A stretch of 5,649 nucleotides of DNA from an uncultured Flammeovirgaceae bacterium (GTDB taxonomy: Bacteria; Bacteroidota; Bacteroidia; Cytophagales; Cyclobacteriaceae), in contig CAMPJM010000297.1 of assembly GCA_946886805.1 (NCBI GenBank), positions 1-5,649 on the forward strand, read 5' to 3'. The notes under the pieces were generated by a model. That model had not been told where the DNA came from and made no database searches. It saw only the letters and a program-made list of their open reading frames with translations. Position numbers and translations under genes: made by a program. This document shows positions 1-5,649 of the stretch, piece after piece (the stretch's first letter is position 1; every line of letters begins with the position of its first letter).

Positions 1-2511
1 ATTGCTTCTGTGAATTCGCTCATAACTTTCTGCTAATACTGTCTTGATCCCTAACAAAAAGGTTCCTTTTGCCGCCCAGTCTCGGGAAGAGCCACTGCCA
101 TATTCTTTTCCCGCAAGCACCACGAGCGGGACACCAGCTTCTTTATATTTGACGGAAGCATCATAAACAGACATTTCCTCACCATCAGGCAAATATCGGG
201 TATAGCCGCCTTCTTTGGTTGCCAGCTTATTTTTTATGCGCACGTTGGCGAAGGTACCACGAACCATCACTTCATCATTTCCGCGGCGGGATCCATAGGA
301 ATTAAACTCTTCCTTCGGGGTGCCCCTGCTGATTAAATATTGTCCTGCTGGGGAGTTCTCATTAAATGAGCCTGCCGGGGAAATATGGTCAGTAGTGACA
401 CTGTCTCCTAACATAAGAAGGCACCTGGCCTCTTTTATATCTTCAAAAGCTGCCGGTTGATCTGAAATATTGTGGAAGAAGGGTGCTTCTTTAATGTAGG
501 TGGAAGATTCATCCCAGGCATATAATTTGTCTTGTGGGATCTCCAGATTTCTCCAGATCTCATTTCCTTCAAAAATTTCACCATAGTTTTTAGCAAAATC
601 ATCAGGGGTTAATACCTTGTTCATTATCTCTAATATCTCCTCATTTGAAGGCCAAATATCTTTTAGAAATACGGGTTCCTGATTGGGATCATAGCTGATT
701 GGCTCATTGATAAGGTCTATATCCACTCGACCAGCAATGGCATAGGCCACCACCAGCATGGGAGACATCAGGAAGTTCATCCTTACCTGTGGATGTATTC
801 GGGCTTCAAAATTCCGGTTGCCGGAAAGTACTGACGTTACCACCAGATCATTTTCATCCACCGCCTGGGCAATATGTGCAGGCAAGGGACCGGAGTTTCC
901 TATACAGGATGTGCAACCATAACCAACCAGGTGAAACCGCAGTGCCTCCAGGTCATCCAGCAGGTCTGCTTTTATGAGATAATCAGTCACTACCTTGGAG
1001 CCTGGAGCCAAAGAAGTTTTTACCCACGGTCTTGAATCCAGTCCTCGTGCCTTTGCTTTTTTAGCTACCAGCCCGGCTCCCAGCATCACATAGGGATTGG
1101 ACGTATTGGTGCAGGAAGTGATAGCGGCAATCACTACAGCGCCATCAGAAAGTAAGTATTTTTTGGTGCCGACTGTGACCTGCGCCACCTTCAGCCCATT
1201 TTTTTCTTTGGTTTCCACGGATGTTTCTTGCGCGCTGGGAAAAGGCGCAGGCATAATCGGCTGACTACCACCCTCACCAGCCCAACGGACAATTTGTCTT
1301 TCTTCCGGGGCTATGTATTTTCTACCATAGGCTTCATCTAAAAGATCTATGAATTTGGGCTTAAAGTTTTTGAGCAGGATCTTGTCCTGCGGACGTTTCG
1401 GGCCGGCTACAGTAGGTTCTATGCTGGATAAATCAAGTTCTACTACATCGGTATAAGTGATTTTCTCCTCGTCGGTTCGCCATAGCATATTTGCTTTGCA
1501 GTAATCTTCTACCAATTGTATCTGATCCTCAGTTCGATTGCTTTTGCGCATGTATTCCAGCGTTTTATCATCGATAGGGAAATAGGTGATGGTACAGCCA
1601 AATTCTGGTGACATATTACCAATAGTTGCCCGGTCCGGCACCGTAAGATGCTGTAATCCTTCTCCAAATACTTCTACAAACTTCCCTACCACCCCGTATT
1701 GTCTTAGTTTTTCCGCAATGGTCAACACGAGATCAGTTGCAGTGGTGCCCAAAGGCATTTCACCCGTCAATTTCAAGCCGATCACCTCGGGCATGATAAA
1801 ATAGATTGGTTGCCCAAGCAAAGCTGCTTCAGCTTCGATACCGCCCACGCCCCAAGCCACAACACCAATACCATTCACCATGGGGGTATGGCTGTCAGTA
1901 CCTACCAAAGTATCGGGGAAAGCTTCTCCGTTTCTGGCAATTACGCCTTGTGACAAATATTCAAGATTTACCTGATGGCAAATACCCATGCCGGGCGGTA
2001 CCACACTAAAATTATTAAATGATTTTTGTGCCCATTTTAAAAACTGATAGCGTTCTTTATTTCGTTTATACTCCTCGTCAATATTGCGTTGGTAGGAATA
2101 GTCTGTTCCAAAATAATCTACCTGCACCGAATGATCAATAACGAGGTCGACCGGCACCAAAGGATTAATGGAATTGGGATCTTTGCCTTTTCTGGCTATT
2201 TCTGCTCTCAGGGAAGCGATATCCACCACAGAAGGAACTCCTGTAAAGTCCTGCATCAGTACCCTAGCTGGTTTAAATGGGATGTCTTTATCAGAAGCTT
2301 TTGGCCGCCAACCAAGAATGGTCTCTATGTTCTCTCTTGTGATTGCAAAATCATCAAAATTTCGCAAAGCGTTTTCTAACAAGATTCTGATGGAAAAAGG
2401 CATTTTTTCAATTTCATATCCCTGCTTTACAAGCTCGGGGAGGCTGTAATAGGTAAGAATGCCTTTTTTGGAATTTAATGACTGTTTAACTTTAAAAGGA
2501 TCTGTGACCAT
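1..2511 (-). CDS. acnA: Aconitate hydratase, AcnA/IRP type (C-terminus beyond window)
   Basis: This enzyme isomerises citrate to isocitrate via cis-aconitate in the cytoplasmic TCA cycle, using a [4Fe-4S] cluster. The frame is open for 837 codons from the ATG at 2511 to base 1. Three cluster cysteines are visible: Cys467 in SCTNTSNP, and Cys533 and Cys536 in GYGCTSCIGNSGP. Their 66- and 3-residue spacings match E. coli AcnA. Other landmarks are TDSHTPMVNG (about 205-214), GDSVTTDHISPAG (from 702) and the swivel-domain substrate-binding loop GSGSSRDWAAKG (805-816, Arg810). The sequence stops at YERIHRSN, just before the usual LVGMGVLPLQF stretch, so roughly 80-90 residues lie outside. The length and three-cysteine layout fit AcnA rather than the shorter mitochondrial type. 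AcnD of the methylcitrate pathway is related, but no prp gene is seen. The start lacks a Shine-Dalgarno sequence, as is common in Bacteroidota. It is divergent from the CMD-NDH-2 pair and shares their upstream spacer. In other bacteria, apo-AcnA binds mRNA; that is untested here. Confidence 0.96.
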   Translation of the reverse strand, partial: MVTDPFKVKQSLNSKKGILTYYSLPELVKQGYEIEKMPFSIRILLENALRNFDDFAITRENIETILGWRPKASDKDIPFKPARVLMQDFTGVPSVVDIASLRAEIARKGKDPNSINPLVPVDLVIDHSVQVDYFGTDYSYQRNIDEEYKRNKERYQFLKWAQKSFNNFSVVPPGMGICHQVNLEYLSQGVIARNGEAFPDTLVGTDSHTPMVNGIGVVAWGVGGIEAEAALLGQPIYFIMPEVIGLKLTGEMPLGTTATDLVLTIAEKLRQYGVVGKFVEVFGEGLQHLTVPDRATIGNMSPEFGCTITYFPIDDKTLEYMRKSNRTEDQIQLVEDYCKANMLWRTDEEKITYTDVVELDLSSIEPTVAGPKRPQDKILLKNFKPKFIDLLDEAYGRKYIAPEERQIVRWAGEGGSQPIMPAPFPSAQETSVETKEKNGLKVAQVTVGTKKYLLSDGAVVIAAITSCTNTSNPYVMLGAGLVAKKAKARGLDSRPWVKTSLAPGSKVVTDYLIKADLLDDLEALRFHLVGYGCTSCIGNSGPLPAHIAQAVDENDLVVTSVLSGNRNFEARIHPQVRMNFLMSPMLVVAYAIAGRVDIDLINEPISYDPNQEPVFLKDIWPSNEEILEIMNKVLTPDDFAKNYGEIFEGNEIWRNLEIPQDKLYAWDESSTYIKEAPFFHNISDQPAAFEDIKEARCLLMLGDSVTTDHISPAGSFNENSPAGQYLISRGTPKEEFNSYGSRRGNDEVMVRGTFANVRIKNKLATKEGGYTRYLPDGEEMSVYDASVKYKEAGVPLVVLAGKEYGSGSSRDWAAKGTFLLGIKTVLAESYERIHRSN

Positions 2512-2582
2512 AGGTATAAAAGTTTTAGTGCTTAACAGGATTAGCTAGTAATATTCTTACGGTTTAGAAAAAATAAAGATTT

Positions 2583-2588
2583 ATTATA
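2583..2588 (-). promoter_or_regulatory. Possible -10 element (TATAAT) for acnA
   Basis: Read on the minus strand, the spacer contains TATAAT about 71 bases before the aconitase ATG. No convincing partner element at -35, and no clear Bacteroidota-type TAnnTTTG box, was found. If it is real, the palindrome at 2609-2634 would sit about 20-45 bp upstream of it, in the -35 region. The spacer is very AT-rich, so this hexamer could occur by chance. Confidence 0.25.
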
Positions 2589-2608
2589 ACCAATACAAAA
2601 TGCCAACG

Positions 2609-2634
2609 TATAAAAGACTAAATAGTCCTTTATA
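2609..2634. promoter_or_regulatory. Palindromic operator, copy A (acnA / CMD-ndh spacer)
   Basis: A 26-bp inverted repeat with left arm TATAAAAGACTA, a central AA, and right arm TAGTCCTTTATA. The 12-base arms pair with one mismatch. It ends 11 bases before the ATG at 2646. Copy B at 5002-5027 matches it at 24 of 26 positions when one copy is reversed. The core GACT-N4-AGTC with flanking ATA/TAT resembles the type 1 sites of the Rrf2-family Fe-S sensor IscR, which use GACT-N5-AGTC. It could act on the plus-strand operon, on the divergent aconitase gene, or on both. A role as an mRNA hairpin in the leader is the alternative, but near-identical recurrence before another gene favours protein binding. 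Confidence 0.7.
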
Positions 2635-2645
2635 AAATATACAAA

Positions 2646-2987
2646 ATGAATAATCAACATGTTTTCCCTGTAGTAACAAGAGAAATTGCTGAGAAAAGAG
2701 CTTCTCTTGCACCCGAAGCGATAGAAGCTTTTCGGAATTTCAGTAGAACAGTTTTTAAAGAAGGAGCGCTTTCGGAAAAGACCAAGCAGTTGATTACTGT
2801 TGCTGTAGCACATGTGACCCAGTGTCCCTCTTGCATCCGTGGACATACTTCTCAAGCCATAAGAAAGGGGGCAACTCAGGAAGAAATAATGGAAGCCATT
2901 TGGGTGGCTTCTGAAATGCGGGCGGGTGCTGCTTATGCACATTCTGCTTTGGCTATCGATGAAATGGCCAAAACCCAAAAAAGCTGA
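2646..2987 (+). CDS. Carboxymuconolactone decarboxylase / AhpD-like small protein
   Basis: A 113-residue, mostly helical cytoplasmic protein of the CMD/AhpD superfamily. The diagnostic stretch is KTKQLITVAVAHVTQCPSC at 45-63, followed by IRGH, giving Cys60-x2-Cys63-x3-His67. In AhpD the equivalent cysteine pair and histidine form the peroxidase/disulphide-reductase centre. The family helix continues through KGATQEEIMEAIWVASEM. The length is normal for the single-domain form. The glutamate that usually lies 12 residues before the first cysteine (AhpD proton relay) is Gln48 here. It is the first gene after operator copy A, and an NADH dehydrogenase gene starts 25 bp downstream, which suggests one transcript. 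I infer thiol-based redox or peroxide chemistry; decarboxylase activity is unlikely for CxxC members. The exact substrate is unknown. The start at 2646 gives the normal N-terminus for this family. Confidence 0.88.
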   Translation: MNNQHVFPVVTREIAEKRASLAPEAIEAFRNFSRTVFKEGALSEKTKQLITVAVAHVTQCPSCIRGHTSQAIRKGATQEEIMEAIWVASEMRAGAAYAHSALAIDEMAKTQKS

Positions 2988-3012
2988 TTATAAGAATTTA
3001 AGTTTTGAAGAG

Positions 3013-4350
3013 ATGAAAAATTACAAAAAGCATATCGTTATTGTTGGTGGTGGTTTTGGCGGTATTTCAGCTGCCAATGAACTGAAGGGAAAGGAAGTGG
3101 ATGTCACGCTCATTGATAAGACCAACCATCATTTATTTCAGCCGCTATTATATCAGGTGGCTACTGCTGCTTTATCCCCGGGTGATATAGCAACGCCTAT
3201 CCGTTCGATTGTGGGGAAAGATTCCGGAGTCCGGGTGATATTGGGAGAGGTAGAGAAAATTGAAGCAGCAGAGAGAAAACTAACTATGCTGGATGGACGC
3301 ATTATTTCTTACGACCAACTAATCATAGCTGTTGGTGCTAAATACAATTATTTTGGTCATAACGAGTGGGAGGATAATGCACCCGGTCTTAAAACTGTCA
3401 GTGATGCGCTTCAGATAAGGGAGCGGATTCTATTATCCTTAGAGGAAGCGGAACAAATTCCGGATCCCGAACAACGCAAGCCCTACCTTACCTACGTGAT
3501 TATTGGTGGTGGTCCTACCGGCGTAGAAATGGCGGGTGCGATAGCTGAAATTACCAAACGCAATATAAAGCTGGATTACAGTAATATCAGCAAAGAGGAA
3601 ACGCGCATTGTGCTGGTTGAAGCAGCACCGGGAATTTTGAATGGCTATCCTGAATCTTTATCATTGAAGGCAAAGGAAATGTTGGAGGAATTGGGCGTGG
3701 AGGTAATGCTGAATAAGCCAGTAACAAAAATTGAGCGTGGCAAAATATCTTTCGCCGATGGTGCCATTGAATCACCGAACATCATCTGGGCTGCAGGAGT
3801 GGTTGCAAATCCTCTGATAAATTCTCTGGGAGTTGCACATGACCGCAGTGGAAGGGTAATGGTAAATGGTGACCTGAGTTTGCCCGACTATCCGGAAATT
3901 TTTGTCATCGGTGATGCCGCTCATTATAAAGATGAAGCAGGAAAACCGCTTCCATCGACAGCATCGGTGGCCATGCAGCAAGGCCGGTTTGTCGGGAAGG
4001 CATTAAGGAGTGAAAAGCAAATGGATCGAGCCCCATTTAGATACGCAAACAAAGGATCAATGGCCACTATAGGAAGGGCAAAAGCAATAGCGGATATCAA
4101 CGGACTAAAACTCAGTGGATTTCCTGCGTGGATATTATGGTCAGTTGTACATATACTGTTTCTGATAGGCTTTCGAAACCGGTTCCGTGTTTTTGTAGAG
4201 TGGGTATGGTATTACTTTACGTATAAGCGAGGCGTTAAGCTCATTACTGACCGTTCGGGTTGCCAACATTGCAGTTCGTTCGAAAAGCCTTTAGGGCAAA
4301 CAGATAATATTCGTGATATTTTATACAGCGAGCTCCAATTACAGGCTTAA
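3013..4350 (+). CDS. ndh: Type II NADH:quinone oxidoreductase (NDH-2)
   Basis: A 445-residue FAD enzyme that passes electrons from NADH to the quinone pool without pumping protons, bound to the inner face of the cytoplasmic membrane. The FAD-binding loop GGGFGG is at 12-17, followed by the family signature NHHLFQPLLYQVATAAL (38-54). A second dinucleotide fold, IIGGGPTGVEMAGAIAE (163-179), binds NADH. Glu203 at the end of its second strand favours NADH over NADPH. VIGDAAH (298-304) contacts FAD, and ASVAMQQG (317-324) corresponds to the quinone-site AQxAxQ motif, with Ser in place of the first Gln. The hydrophobic, aromatic tail (about 370-410) is the membrane anchor. The tail also carries Cys417-x2-Cys420. 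I chose the start at 3013 because family members begin just before the first beta strand; starts at 2926 or 2959 would overlap the CMD gene. It is probably cotranscribed with that gene. Confidence 0.93.
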   Translation: MKNYKKHIVIVGGGFGGISAANELKGKEVDVTLIDKTNHHLFQPLLYQVATAALSPGDIATPIRSIVGKDSGVRVILGEVEKIEAAERKLTMLDGRIISYDQLIIAVGAKYNYFGHNEWEDNAPGLKTVSDALQIRERILLSLEEAEQIPDPEQRKPYLTYVIIGGGPTGVEMAGAIAEITKRNIKLDYSNISKEETRIVLVEAAPGILNGYPESLSLKAKEMLEELGVEVMLNKPVTKIERGKISFADGAIESPNIIWAAGVVANPLINSLGVAHDRSGRVMVNGDLSLPDYPEIFVIGDAAHYKDEAGKPLPSTASVAMQQGRFVGKALRSEKQMDRAPFRYANKGSMATIGRAKAIADINGLKLSGFPAWILWSVVHILFLIGFRNRFRVFVEWVWYYFTYKRGVKLITDRSGCQHCSSFEKPLGQTDNIRDILYSELQLQA

Positions 4351-4379
4351 CTGTTTAAAGCTTAAAAATAACTGTAATA

Positions 4380-4511
4380 TGAGTTCGAATCGAGATTGGC
4401 CTGAACTATATTGGGGAGCGTCAATGAGATACCGGAAAATAAAGATTTTTGAAATATAAATCTTTATTTTCCGGTATGACGTTCAAATTTGATACCCGAA
4501 CTCAATTTTTT
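4380..4511 (+). terminator. Candidate terminator after ndh: long hairpin plus T-run
   Basis: Thirty bases after the ndh stop, TGAGTTCG (4380-4387) is complementary to CGAACTCA (4497-4504), and six T residues follow at 4506-4511. Between them lies a long imperfect stem capped by a perfect 20-bp hairpin. The outer stem followed by a T-run could end transcription of the CMD-ndh transcript. The element is much longer than a usual intrinsic terminator and the upper stem is AT-rich, so this role is uncertain. Confidence 0.35.
4429..4477. repeat. Perfect 20-bp inverted repeat within a larger palindromic element
   Basis: The left arm (4429-4448) begins ATACCGGAAAAT and the right arm (4458-4477) ends ATTTTCCGGTAT. 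All 20 bases pair, around a 9-base loop, TTGAAATAT. Outside it the complementarity continues imperfectly: TGAAC (4402-4406) with GTTCA (4481-4485), CGTCA (4419-4423) with TGACG (4477-4481), and the outer TGAGTTCG/CGAACTCA ends. The left flank carries extra unpaired blocks. This could be a terminator, a MITE-like non-autonomous element or another structured spacer element. No target-site duplication is evident. Confidence 0.75.
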
Positions 4512-4532
4512 AAAATTTAAATAAAATGTGTT

Positions 4533-4799
4533 ATGAACTTAATAGAAAATTTAGTTAGCTTTTTCAATAAACCAGCATCAGAGACAGAAGTAGCAAGTCC
4601 TGATGGATTATGTTCCCTTTGCTGGGGGCATCAAAAATACGATCATCAGATAAGGGAGATCTACAAAGACAAACAAATAGATGTAGAAAACCATCAGGCA
4701 AAATATACACTTATCCAGGATTTTATGGTCAATCAGCTTGATGGTATCAGACTTAAAAAGGAAGATGAGCATATTCATGAATGTCCTACGTGTGGATGA
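4533..4799 (+). CDS. Small protein with paired CxxC motifs, zinc-ribbon-like, unknown function
   Basis: An 88-residue protein that I do not recognise by name. Its N-terminus (MNLIENLVSFFNK) is a short amphipathic stretch, without a signal peptide or a full membrane segment. Cys27-x2-Cys30 sits in GLCSLCWGHQKYD, and Cys84-x2-Cys87 ends the protein as HECPTCG. Two CxxC knuckles about 54 residues apart suggest a single tetrahedral Zn site joining the two ends, with a charged helical middle (about 38-80). Small cytoplasmic proteins of this CxxCWG type seem familiar from Bacteroidota, but no function can be assigned. An earlier ATG at 4526 is in another frame and soon stops, which leaves 4533 as the start. 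It stands alone, separated from ndh by the inverted-repeat element and from the next gene by 252 bp. Codon use resembles the neighbouring genes. Confidence 0.75.
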   Translation: MNLIENLVSFFNKPASETEVASPDGLCSLCWGHQKYDHQIREIYKDKQIDVENHQAKYTLIQDFMVNQLDGIRLKKEDEHIHECPTCG

Positions 4800-5000
4800 G
4801 GGTAGGTTGGTAAAGTTTCACCCCGGATTCTGGGAGGCAGCGGAACATTAATCCTGTCCAGAAAAATGGGAAAGTCTCTATTTGGGCACGGGTTTTACTA
4901 TTGAGATGTGCCTGTTCCAAAACACCCTCCTCAACAGAAATTTCAAACTTATAAAAAAGATCTAAATGATGAACCTTTATTGAATCCTCAACGTATAAAG
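4800..5000. other. Spacer with GC-richer block of unknown origin
   Basis: The first 130 bases after the small CxxC gene are about 48% GC by count, well above the other spacers. On the plus strand, frame 4801 reads VKFHPGFWEAAEH, then a TAA at 4849, then stays open to a TAA near 4965. The minus strand is open from 5013 to 4786. Neither reading has a recognisable domain or a plausible start context. It may be a decayed gene fragment, a dispersed repeat or a long 3' untranslated region. From about 4935 the sequence becomes AT-rich and leads into the promoter region of the next gene. Confidence 0.4.
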
Positions 5001-5001
5001 T

Positions 5002-5027
5002 TATAAAGGACAAATTAGTCTTTTATA
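5002..5027. promoter_or_regulatory. Palindromic operator, copy B (upstream of DUF6448 gene)
   Basis: The arms TATAAAGGAC and GTCTTTTATA flank AAATTA. They pair at nine of ten positions, and one further T/A pair extends the outer end (5001/5028). It ends 24 bases before the ATG at 5052. Compared with the reverse complement of copy A, it differs only at two central positions. The 11-mer CAACGTATAAA lies just upstream here (4989-4999) and also at copy A (2604-2614), where it runs into the palindrome. I infer that both genes answer to the same DNA-binding dimer. Confidence 0.7.
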
Positions 5028-5051: not shown

Positions 5052-5649
5052 ATGAAAAACATAAAATTTAATCCAACACGGAGTTTTAAGGATATTAGAA
5101 AGATTTTCCTTGCAGGCATATTTATGCTGTTGTTGATCATTCCTCAAACCGCGTCCGCCCACTGCGATTCTTATGATGGACCAGTGATAAAAGACGCCTT
5201 AAAAGCCTTTAATAATAACAAAGTGGAGCTTGTCCTGAAATGGGTAGAAGAAGAACATGAAACTGAAATTAAAAATCTGTTTGCAAAAACCTATGCCTTG
5301 AAAAATGCAGATACAGAAATATACCAGATTGTAGAGAAGCATTTTTTAGAAACGCTGGTACGATTGCACAGAGAAGGTGAGGGCGCTCCTTATACTGGAT
5401 TAAAGCCTGCGGGATCTACCACTGCCATTATTCAGATGGCTGATGAGGCTTTGGCTGAAAAAGATATCAAGGCGCTTTCTACAAAATTGAATGCCCATAT
5501 AGCGCAGGTAGTGAAAGAGAAATATGAGAAAGCAGCAGCCTTAAGTAAGGTAAAAGATGCGTCGGTGGAACAGGGAAGAGCTTATGTAGCAGCTTATGTT
5601 GATTATACGCATACACTGGAAGGTATCCATGCTGTATTGGAACATGGAG
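5052..5649 (+). CDS. Exported DUF6448-family protein (C-terminus beyond window)
   Basis: The frame is open for 199 codons and runs off the right edge. Residues 1-36 form a Sec signal peptide: a basic start, the hydrophobic core FLAGIFMLLLII (about 19-30), then PQTASA, with probable cleavage after Ala36. The mature chain would begin HCDSYDGPVIKDALKAF, which I recognise as the start of the DUF6448 family; the central HFLETLVRLHREGEGAPYTGLKPAG elements (97-121, given in part) agree. The remainder is predicted helical and rich in Glu, Lys and His. Candidate ligands are His37, Cys38, Asp39, His97, His106, Glu108, His187, Glu190 and His193. No catalytic function is established. Cys38 is not a lipoprotein cysteine, because the preceding residues (TASAH) lack a lipobox. 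The protein probably acts in the periplasm. Operator copy B upstream suggests coregulation with the CMD-NDH-2 operon. Confidence 0.75.
   Translation, partial: MKNIKFNPTRSFKDIRKIFLAGIFMLLLIIPQTASAHCDSYDGPVIKDALKAFNNNKVELVLKWVEEEHETEIKNLFAKTYALKNADTEIYQIVEKHFLETLVRLHREGEGAPYTGLKPAGSTTAIIQMADEALAEKDIKALSTKLNAHIAQVVKEKYEKAAALSKVKDASVEQGRAYVAAYVDYTHTLEGIHAVLEHG

Follow-up and report, generated by a model that had tools for sequence, protein, structure and literature searches.

The closest described relatives of the system considered here are the NsrR regulons and IscR, the latter with a palindromic operator, and the phylum concerned, Bacteroidota, is a major carrier of clade II nitrous oxide reductase and of partial denitrification; the genus Cecembia belongs to it. 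In the accessible parts of the published sources, the reconstruction of NsrR regulons covers gamma- and beta-proteobacteria, Bacillus and Streptomyces and gives the motif gATGyAT-N5-ATrCATc (PMC1274295), Cys-93, Cys-99 and Cys-105 are the probable cluster ligands of S. coelicolor NsrR, and NsrR sites vary between distant species (PMC4432287). An nsrR gene is mentioned beside nitric oxide (NO) dismutase genes, including those of Cecembia calidifontis, so an NsrR-type regulator has already been noted in the phylum (PMC13386854, in its available text). Rrf2 regulators are also enriched in clade II nos scaffolds, as found with Flavobacteriales Rrf2 queries, and existing knowledge is described as confined to Proteobacteria and Firmicutes (PMC6264515, likewise). 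Here, we analyse a 5,649-nt stretch of DNA (contig CAMPJM010000297.1, assembly GCA_946886805.1, from an uncultured Flammeovirgaceae bacterium; hereafter, the window), in which a 26-bp palindrome occurs twice, as copies A and B, ahead of two gene units: (i) a CMD (AhpD-like) gene with a type II NADH dehydrogenase (NDH-2) gene, and (ii) a DUF6448 gene. A literature search, limited to the top of long result lists and with subscription journals mostly outside its scope, found no published description of this operator in Bacteroidota. We consider it likely that A and B are operators of one Rrf2-family, NsrR-like factor belonging to a separate Bacteroidota branch with its own motif, and that NO lifts its repression; the two gene units are probably induced together by NO. 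The features on which this reading turns are:

Positions 2609–2634, no strand assigned: candidate operator copy A, TATAAAAGACTAAATAGTCCTTTATA, 11 nt before the CMD start codon; 22.5 bits with the Rrf2-promoter matrix described below.
Positions 2646–2987, plus strand: CMD (AhpD-like) gene of 113 aa (PF02627, TIGR00778), which opens the presumed operon behind copy A.
Positions 3013–4350, plus strand: NDH-2 gene (PF07992, PF22366 NDH2_C), the second gene of the presumed CMD operon.
Positions 5002–5027, no strand assigned: candidate operator copy B, TATAAAGGACAAATTAGTCTTTTATA, 24 nt before the DUF6448 start codon; 26.4 bits with the same matrix.
Positions 5052–5649, plus strand: DUF6448 gene (PF20046, 190 bits), behind copy B and running off the window.

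The initial annotation had described the two copies as a near-identical pair close to start codons, and this description holds in detail: both lie at the coordinates it gave, copy A matches the reverse complement of copy B at 24 of 26 bases (22 of 26 in direct orientation), and the two differences, at positions 14 and 16 of the 26-mer, fall in the central spacer. Arm pairing is 9/10 in each copy, and the single odd pair, between positions 7 and 20, is common to both (A/C in copy A and G/T in copy B, which become identical once B is reversed). When the pattern TATAAARGAC-N6-GTCYTTTATA was searched with up to three mismatches, A and B were the sole matches in the window, and 200 dinucleotide shuffles gave none. 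Palindromes of this shape with 9/10 arm pairs number two in the window, against a mean of 0.21 in 100 order-1 resampled windows.

The evidence that ties these sites to an Rrf2 regulator comes from a motif search made without any input from the window. A query profile was built from an alignment of five Rrf2 proteins from Bacteroidota genomes that carry the exact 26-mer pattern (three of the five with the motif in front), and was searched in 296 Bacteroidota genomes. The 30 best Rrf2 loci, one per genome, were chosen by protein score alone, and a palindrome-constrained de novo search was run on the 160-bp upstream regions of the 29 loci left after removal of near-copies. One palindrome was recovered in 23 of the 29 promoters, with a log-likelihood of 199.9 as compared with 43.3–55.7 in 12 shuffled sets. 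Applied to the window, the resulting matrix places B first and A second, with a third site at 1.8 bits, while the best of 300 shuffled windows reaches 15.8 bits. An earlier run that included the five aligned loci gave the motif ATAAArGAyAAATTTrTCyTTTAT, with a site in 28 of 35 promoters, 26 of these at 37–43 nt before the start codon. On the Rrf2 protein tree the site-bearing promoters cluster, requiring 10 changes against a shuffled mean of 17.1 (0/500 shuffles as low); this tree, which lacks resolution at depth, shows only this clustering, at least three of its rows (L028, L034 and L038) are likely wrong frames, and L151 has a wrong start and hence a wrong label.

The association extends to the whole set of 296 genomes. 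The exact pattern ATAAARGAY-N6-RTCYTTTAT occurs at 23 sites in 17 genomes (the backwards pattern in two), and 16 of these 17 genomes are among the 36 with an Rrf2 match of 150 bits or more (hypergeometric P 1e-15, a value that is overstated because the genomes are related). Nineteen of the 23 sites lie within 15 kb of a strong Rrf2 gene, 13 within 5 kb and seven within 1 kb. Flanks were read at 17 loci, family models were applied to some and a local search to all; by this last search, 15 of the 17 site loci hold an NsrR-like, qNor, CuNIR, NorB/C-like or RIC gene (RIC counted without DUF2249-only proteins), L196 and L210 being the two that do not. A core N-oxide gene is present at 16 of the 30 Rrf2 loci, and at L026 a further pattern match precedes a flavohemoprotein gene (NF009805, 504 bits, cut-off 432). 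Fasciclin-like genes stand directly behind the sites at L197, L198 and L210 (with a gap of 42 nt at L210); the L197 gene is identified by PF02469, while those of L198 and L210, like another within the L012 nos run, are identified by reading. Genes of this type would add another member to the regulon. These results strongly support the proposal of a common regulator for both gene units and allow the search for it to be confined to the Rrf2 family; NO is the likely signal.

A search of genome collections for the exact 26-mer pattern returned 17 loci in genome contigs, nine from Bacteroidota and eight from outside, and none in viral contigs. All nine Bacteroidota genomes among the 17 have a PF02082 match above cut-off. 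By reading of the flanks, with family models for some, five of the nine Bacteroidota loci are promoters of N-oxide or linked genes:

Two Saprospiraceae: exact 26-mer before norC-norB-like genes.
Altibacter: exact 26-mer before nrdG-nrdD, followed by a norC-like gene.
Myroides: exact 26-mer before an Rrf2 regulator gene.
Christiangramia gaetbulicola DSM 23082 (L012): exact 26-mer before a gene run that closes with nosZ.

The NorC and NorB names come from reading: by models, the L201 pair is a cytochrome c and a COX1 protein, and at L002 NorC is without a model match and NorB weakly matches cbb3 subunit I. Hits were expected to cluster upstream of respiratory, Fe-S or stress genes, and within Bacteroidota they do so, before nor-like, nir, nos, nrd and Rrf2 genes. 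The other four Bacteroidota loci are unassigned or hairpin-like; among the eight non-Bacteroidota loci, three lie inside open reading frames and one before sufC. The initial annotation had named intragenic occurrence as a sign against the idea, and on this count the outcome is partly adverse, at 3/17 matches over all genomes (L011, flagged as intragenic solely through an upstream TTG start of its Rrf2 frame, is not one of the three). These three loci, together with longer, hairpin-element-like symmetric flanks at L003, L014 and L017, are what speaks for chance likeness, a dispersed repeat or a terminator. Such an origin was rejected, and we regard it as scarcely credible, given the empty window shuffles, the independent matrix that ranks B and A first and second, and the placement of both copies just before genes.

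It could also be supposed that the palindromes function at the RNA level, folding into 5'-leader hairpins by which translation or RNA stability is controlled. Their positions 11 and 24 nt before start codons would suit this, as would their folding as RNA (-5.2 kcal/mol for A and -8.4 kcal/mol for B). Yet the stem of copy A contains an A-C mismatch, and in the 23 sites of relatives complementarity is lacking at the two variable arm pairs in 8 and 19 cases, with A-C in 6 and 10 (sites not oriented by transcript). Such frequent non-complementary pairs fit protein half-sites of the form RGAY, unlike an RNA stem. An Rfam scan of the window at gathering scores gave no match. The hairpin explanation was rejected on the non-complementary pairs and the Rfam result, and we rate it as very improbable. 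With regard to symmetry, 19 of the 23 relatives' sites are asymmetric, with GAC in one half and GAT in the other; in the window, A and B carry GAC on both sides.

We then consider the gene families behind the two sites. Of 394 Bacteroidota genomes, 33 have DUF6448, and 30 loci were taken from these. An N-oxide gene lies within ~3.4 kb at nine of the 30 (qNor at five, CuNIR at two, NosZ at one and RIC at one), and the count becomes 16/30 if two cytochrome-oxidase-like companions are included; at 77 control loci (30 NDH-2 and 47 other CMD) there is none (Fisher P 4e-6). DUF6448 also occurs in 47 plasmid records. Of the five opened, one, from Pelobacter propionicus, carries a clear NO cluster in the order hcp, PAS gene, ric, flavorubredoxin NO reductase, DUF6448 and ferredoxin; one of the others has a hemerythrin neighbour, one a Crp/Fnr gene, one neither, and one is unannotated. 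Alignment of 40 DUF6448 proteins reveals an invariant HCDSY just after a signal-peptide-like stretch, and invariant H106, E110 and H187. The protein is predicted to be exported and all-helical, and it is possibly metal-binding; no clear fold match was obtained for DUF6448.

Likely CMD orthologues, recognized by an identity gap, were found in five of the 296 genomes (59–69 % identity) and in eight more in another draw of 248 genomes (63–73 % identity). DUF6448 is also present in four of the first five genomes, in one of them as a fragment (P 2e-4), and in the wider loci of these five genomes RIC lies near CMD in three, an NDH-2-type gene in three, aconitase in two and DUF6448 in two. The statement that the link between the units is not evident from the proteins is therefore not quite right, since CMD relatives elsewhere stand near RIC, aconitase, NDH-2-type and DUF6448 genes. 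The N-oxide genes that neighbour these families in relatives are independent grounds for assigning the window's genes to an N-oxide neighbourhood. Within the order to which Pedobacter soli belongs, no CMD orthologue was found in 111 genomes (best identity 44 % among the matches listed) and no DUF6448 in 101, the latter in a search whose control genomes gave no match either. Some contigs of equal size recur among the protein matches: 8219 and 7424 for CMD and DUF6448; 68519, 5468 and 5944 for DUF6448 and NDH-2; 7018 and 1977 for CMD and NDH-2. Offset controls on contigs over 4 kb gave means of 0.12–0.32 and up to 2–3 such coincidences, and we take the equal sizes as a hint, of little weight, that the window's genes share contigs in relatives.

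Copy A has a second neighbour, lying 97 nt upstream of a divergent aconitase start:

Positions 1–2511, minus strand: aconitase A gene (TIGR01341 above cut-off), divergent from copy A and running off the window.

Aconitase may or may not be a target of copy A. In relatives, aconitase adjoins or lies within ~5 kb of the CMD orthologue at L164, L165, L132 and L133 (directly before CMD at L165, and by reading of a fragment at L164); the window thus shares its aconitase-CMD neighbourhood with other genomes. Since aconitase is an iron-sulphur (Fe-S) enzyme, its presence beside copy A, and near CMD in those four loci, lends something to a different reading, in which the sites serve another Rrf2 regulator that senses Fe-S status, iron or oxidants in the manner of IscR or a SUF regulator, and the NO genes share the motif only in relatives. 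The same reading gains from two further sites: (i) an exact 26-mer at 540–565 of the Mollicutes metagenome-assembled genome L005, 41 nt before sufC, beyond which a sufS-type gene follows, so that a related Rrf2 operator may govern Fe-S assembly there; and (ii) a weak site (15.4 bits) in a second Rrf2 subgroup, L030. We nevertheless think it unlikely, since 15 of the 17 site loci have NO, denitrification or NsrR-like genes, and reading of these 17 loci revealed no Fe-S assembly gene. The proteins point the same way. In all eight relatives' Rrf2 proteins the IscR equivalog TIGR02010 scores 36.4–54.8 bits against a cut-off of 207.55 (25–55 bits over two IscR models, with cut-offs of 207.6 and 275), and the NCBIfam SUF-regulator model is also far below its cut-off; plain IscR membership was rejected on these model scores. 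Six of the eight pass the rrf2_super model, the other two scoring 60.9 and 68.8 against 73.3. C92, C99 and C105 are invariant in all five aligned Rrf2 rows, at positions comparable to the probable ligands of S. coelicolor NsrR, and the Protein Data Bank chains matched by the Rrf2 profile, all weakly, include Rrf2 regulators, CymR, IscR and NsrR.

Several results weigh against the preferred reading of A and B as operators of an NsrR-like factor. Firstly, no good site was found at the 30 DUF6448, 13 CMD and 30 NDH-2 loci fetched: the best matrix scores are 10.1, 7.3 and 9.6 bits, respectively, all under the 15.8 bits of the shuffled windows, and the two best scores at DUF6448 loci (10.1 and 8.6) lie before nirK rather than DUF6448. 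The operator link to DUF6448 and CMD-NDH-2 is thus seen in the window only. Absence of the motif at orthologues in close relatives had been named beforehand as damaging; these loci indeed gave no good copy of the motif, although none belongs to a close relative (best CMD identity 73 %). Secondly, the 296-genome sample includes 25 genomes with DUF6448, and the strong Rrf2 homologue is absent from all of them. Thirdly, 12 of the 17 loci with the exact 26-mer, including the three intragenic ones, cannot be read clearly as N-oxide promoters. Fourthly, the NsrR equivalog NF008240 gives 27.1–42.8 bits on all eight relatives' Rrf2 proteins, against a cut-off of 182; plain NsrR membership was rejected on this score and on the unlikeness of the operator to the known NsrR motif. 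Finally, the Rrf2 evidence comes from relatives: we infer the presence of the regulator in the window's genome, its binding to A and B, the repression and the NO signal, the last because of the target genes.

If the preferred reading is correct, an Rrf2 dimer, presumably with an Fe-S cluster on its three conserved cysteines, would sit on each palindrome and block transcription of CMD-NDH-2 and of DUF6448; the distances of 11 and 24 nt to the start codons suit a repressor of this kind. NO would damage the cluster and release the protein from the DNA, so that CMD-NDH-2 and DUF6448, and perhaps aconitase as well, would be induced together. The window's lineage may have recruited DUF6448 and CMD-NDH-2 recently. 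A fuller picture, to which we give slightly less than an even chance, combines a separate Bacteroidota Rrf2 branch, with its own operator, as NO sensor; recruitment of CMD-NDH-2 and DUF6448 in the lineage of the window; DUF6448 as a widespread, so far unnamed exported family of nitrosative-stress or denitrification proteins; and CMD-NDH-2 as an NO-induced respiratory and repair module.

The remaining features of the window concern promoters and the region between the two gene units:

Positions 2568–2599, minus strand: promoter-like pair TTTG-N20-TATTTTTT before aconitase, with one mismatch to the Bacteroidota consensus.
Positions 4533–4799: small open reading frame of 88 aa.

Copy A lies 9 nt upstream of this promoter-like pair. 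A plus-strand scan before CMD and DUF6448 with the Bacteroidota promoter consensus gave no promoter pair. An 11-mer, CAACGTATAAA, is present at both palindromes (2604–2614, overlapping the left arm of A, and 4989–4999, ending 2 nt before B) and is a possible promoter element. The small open reading frame has a CxxC near residue 27 and a second, C-terminal CxxC, and is without a Pfam or NCBIfam match at E 0.001. Between it and the NDH-2 stop codon sits a perfect inverted repeat (4429–4477), with 20-bp arms around a 9-nt loop and a folding energy of -24.3 kcal/mol as RNA; its AAAATAAAGATTT recurs at 2570–2582, before aconitase. The repeat may serve as a terminator or as another regulatory element. 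Named matches of the window's proteins are mostly from Bacteroidota or Balneolaceae, with a few names lacking a phylum; the nearest CMD matches reach 89 % identity, and the nearest DUF6448 matches, the window's own protein apart, 84 %.

A defined operator would make the Bacteroidota NO regulon readable from sequence, and its value for this phylum follows from the scope of the published NsrR reconstruction, limited, in its accessible text, to proteobacteria, Bacillus and Streptomyces (PMC1274295). DUF6448, for which a search by family name found no paper, would gain a testable function, and the CMD protein and NDH-2 would be tied to NO stress.

Judged from its genes and sites, the system would work like an NsrR regulon, and we do not claim membership in the NsrR family proper. 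It shares with the NsrR regulons, as far as their sources are accessible, an Rrf2 regulator with three cysteines, a palindromic operator, a site before the regulator gene and targets of the hmp, ytfE/ric, norB and nirK kind (PMC1274295, PMC4432287); here, sites before NO detoxification, denitrification and regulator genes are seen in relatives only, the genes of the window being CMD-NDH-2 and DUF6448. It differs in its operator, ATAAARGAY-N6-RTCYTTTAT rather than gATGyAT-N5-ATrCATc (PMC1274295, same limit), in the scores of the relatives' regulators, which fall below the curated NsrR cut-off, and in the window's members CMD-NDH-2 and DUF6448, which are apparently new. The report on Rrf2 genes of clade II nos scaffolds says nothing, in its available part, of an operator, a regulon or any connection with CMD, NDH-2 or DUF6448 (PMC6264515). 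With IscR the system shares the Rrf2 superfamily, whereas its targets are N-oxide genes.

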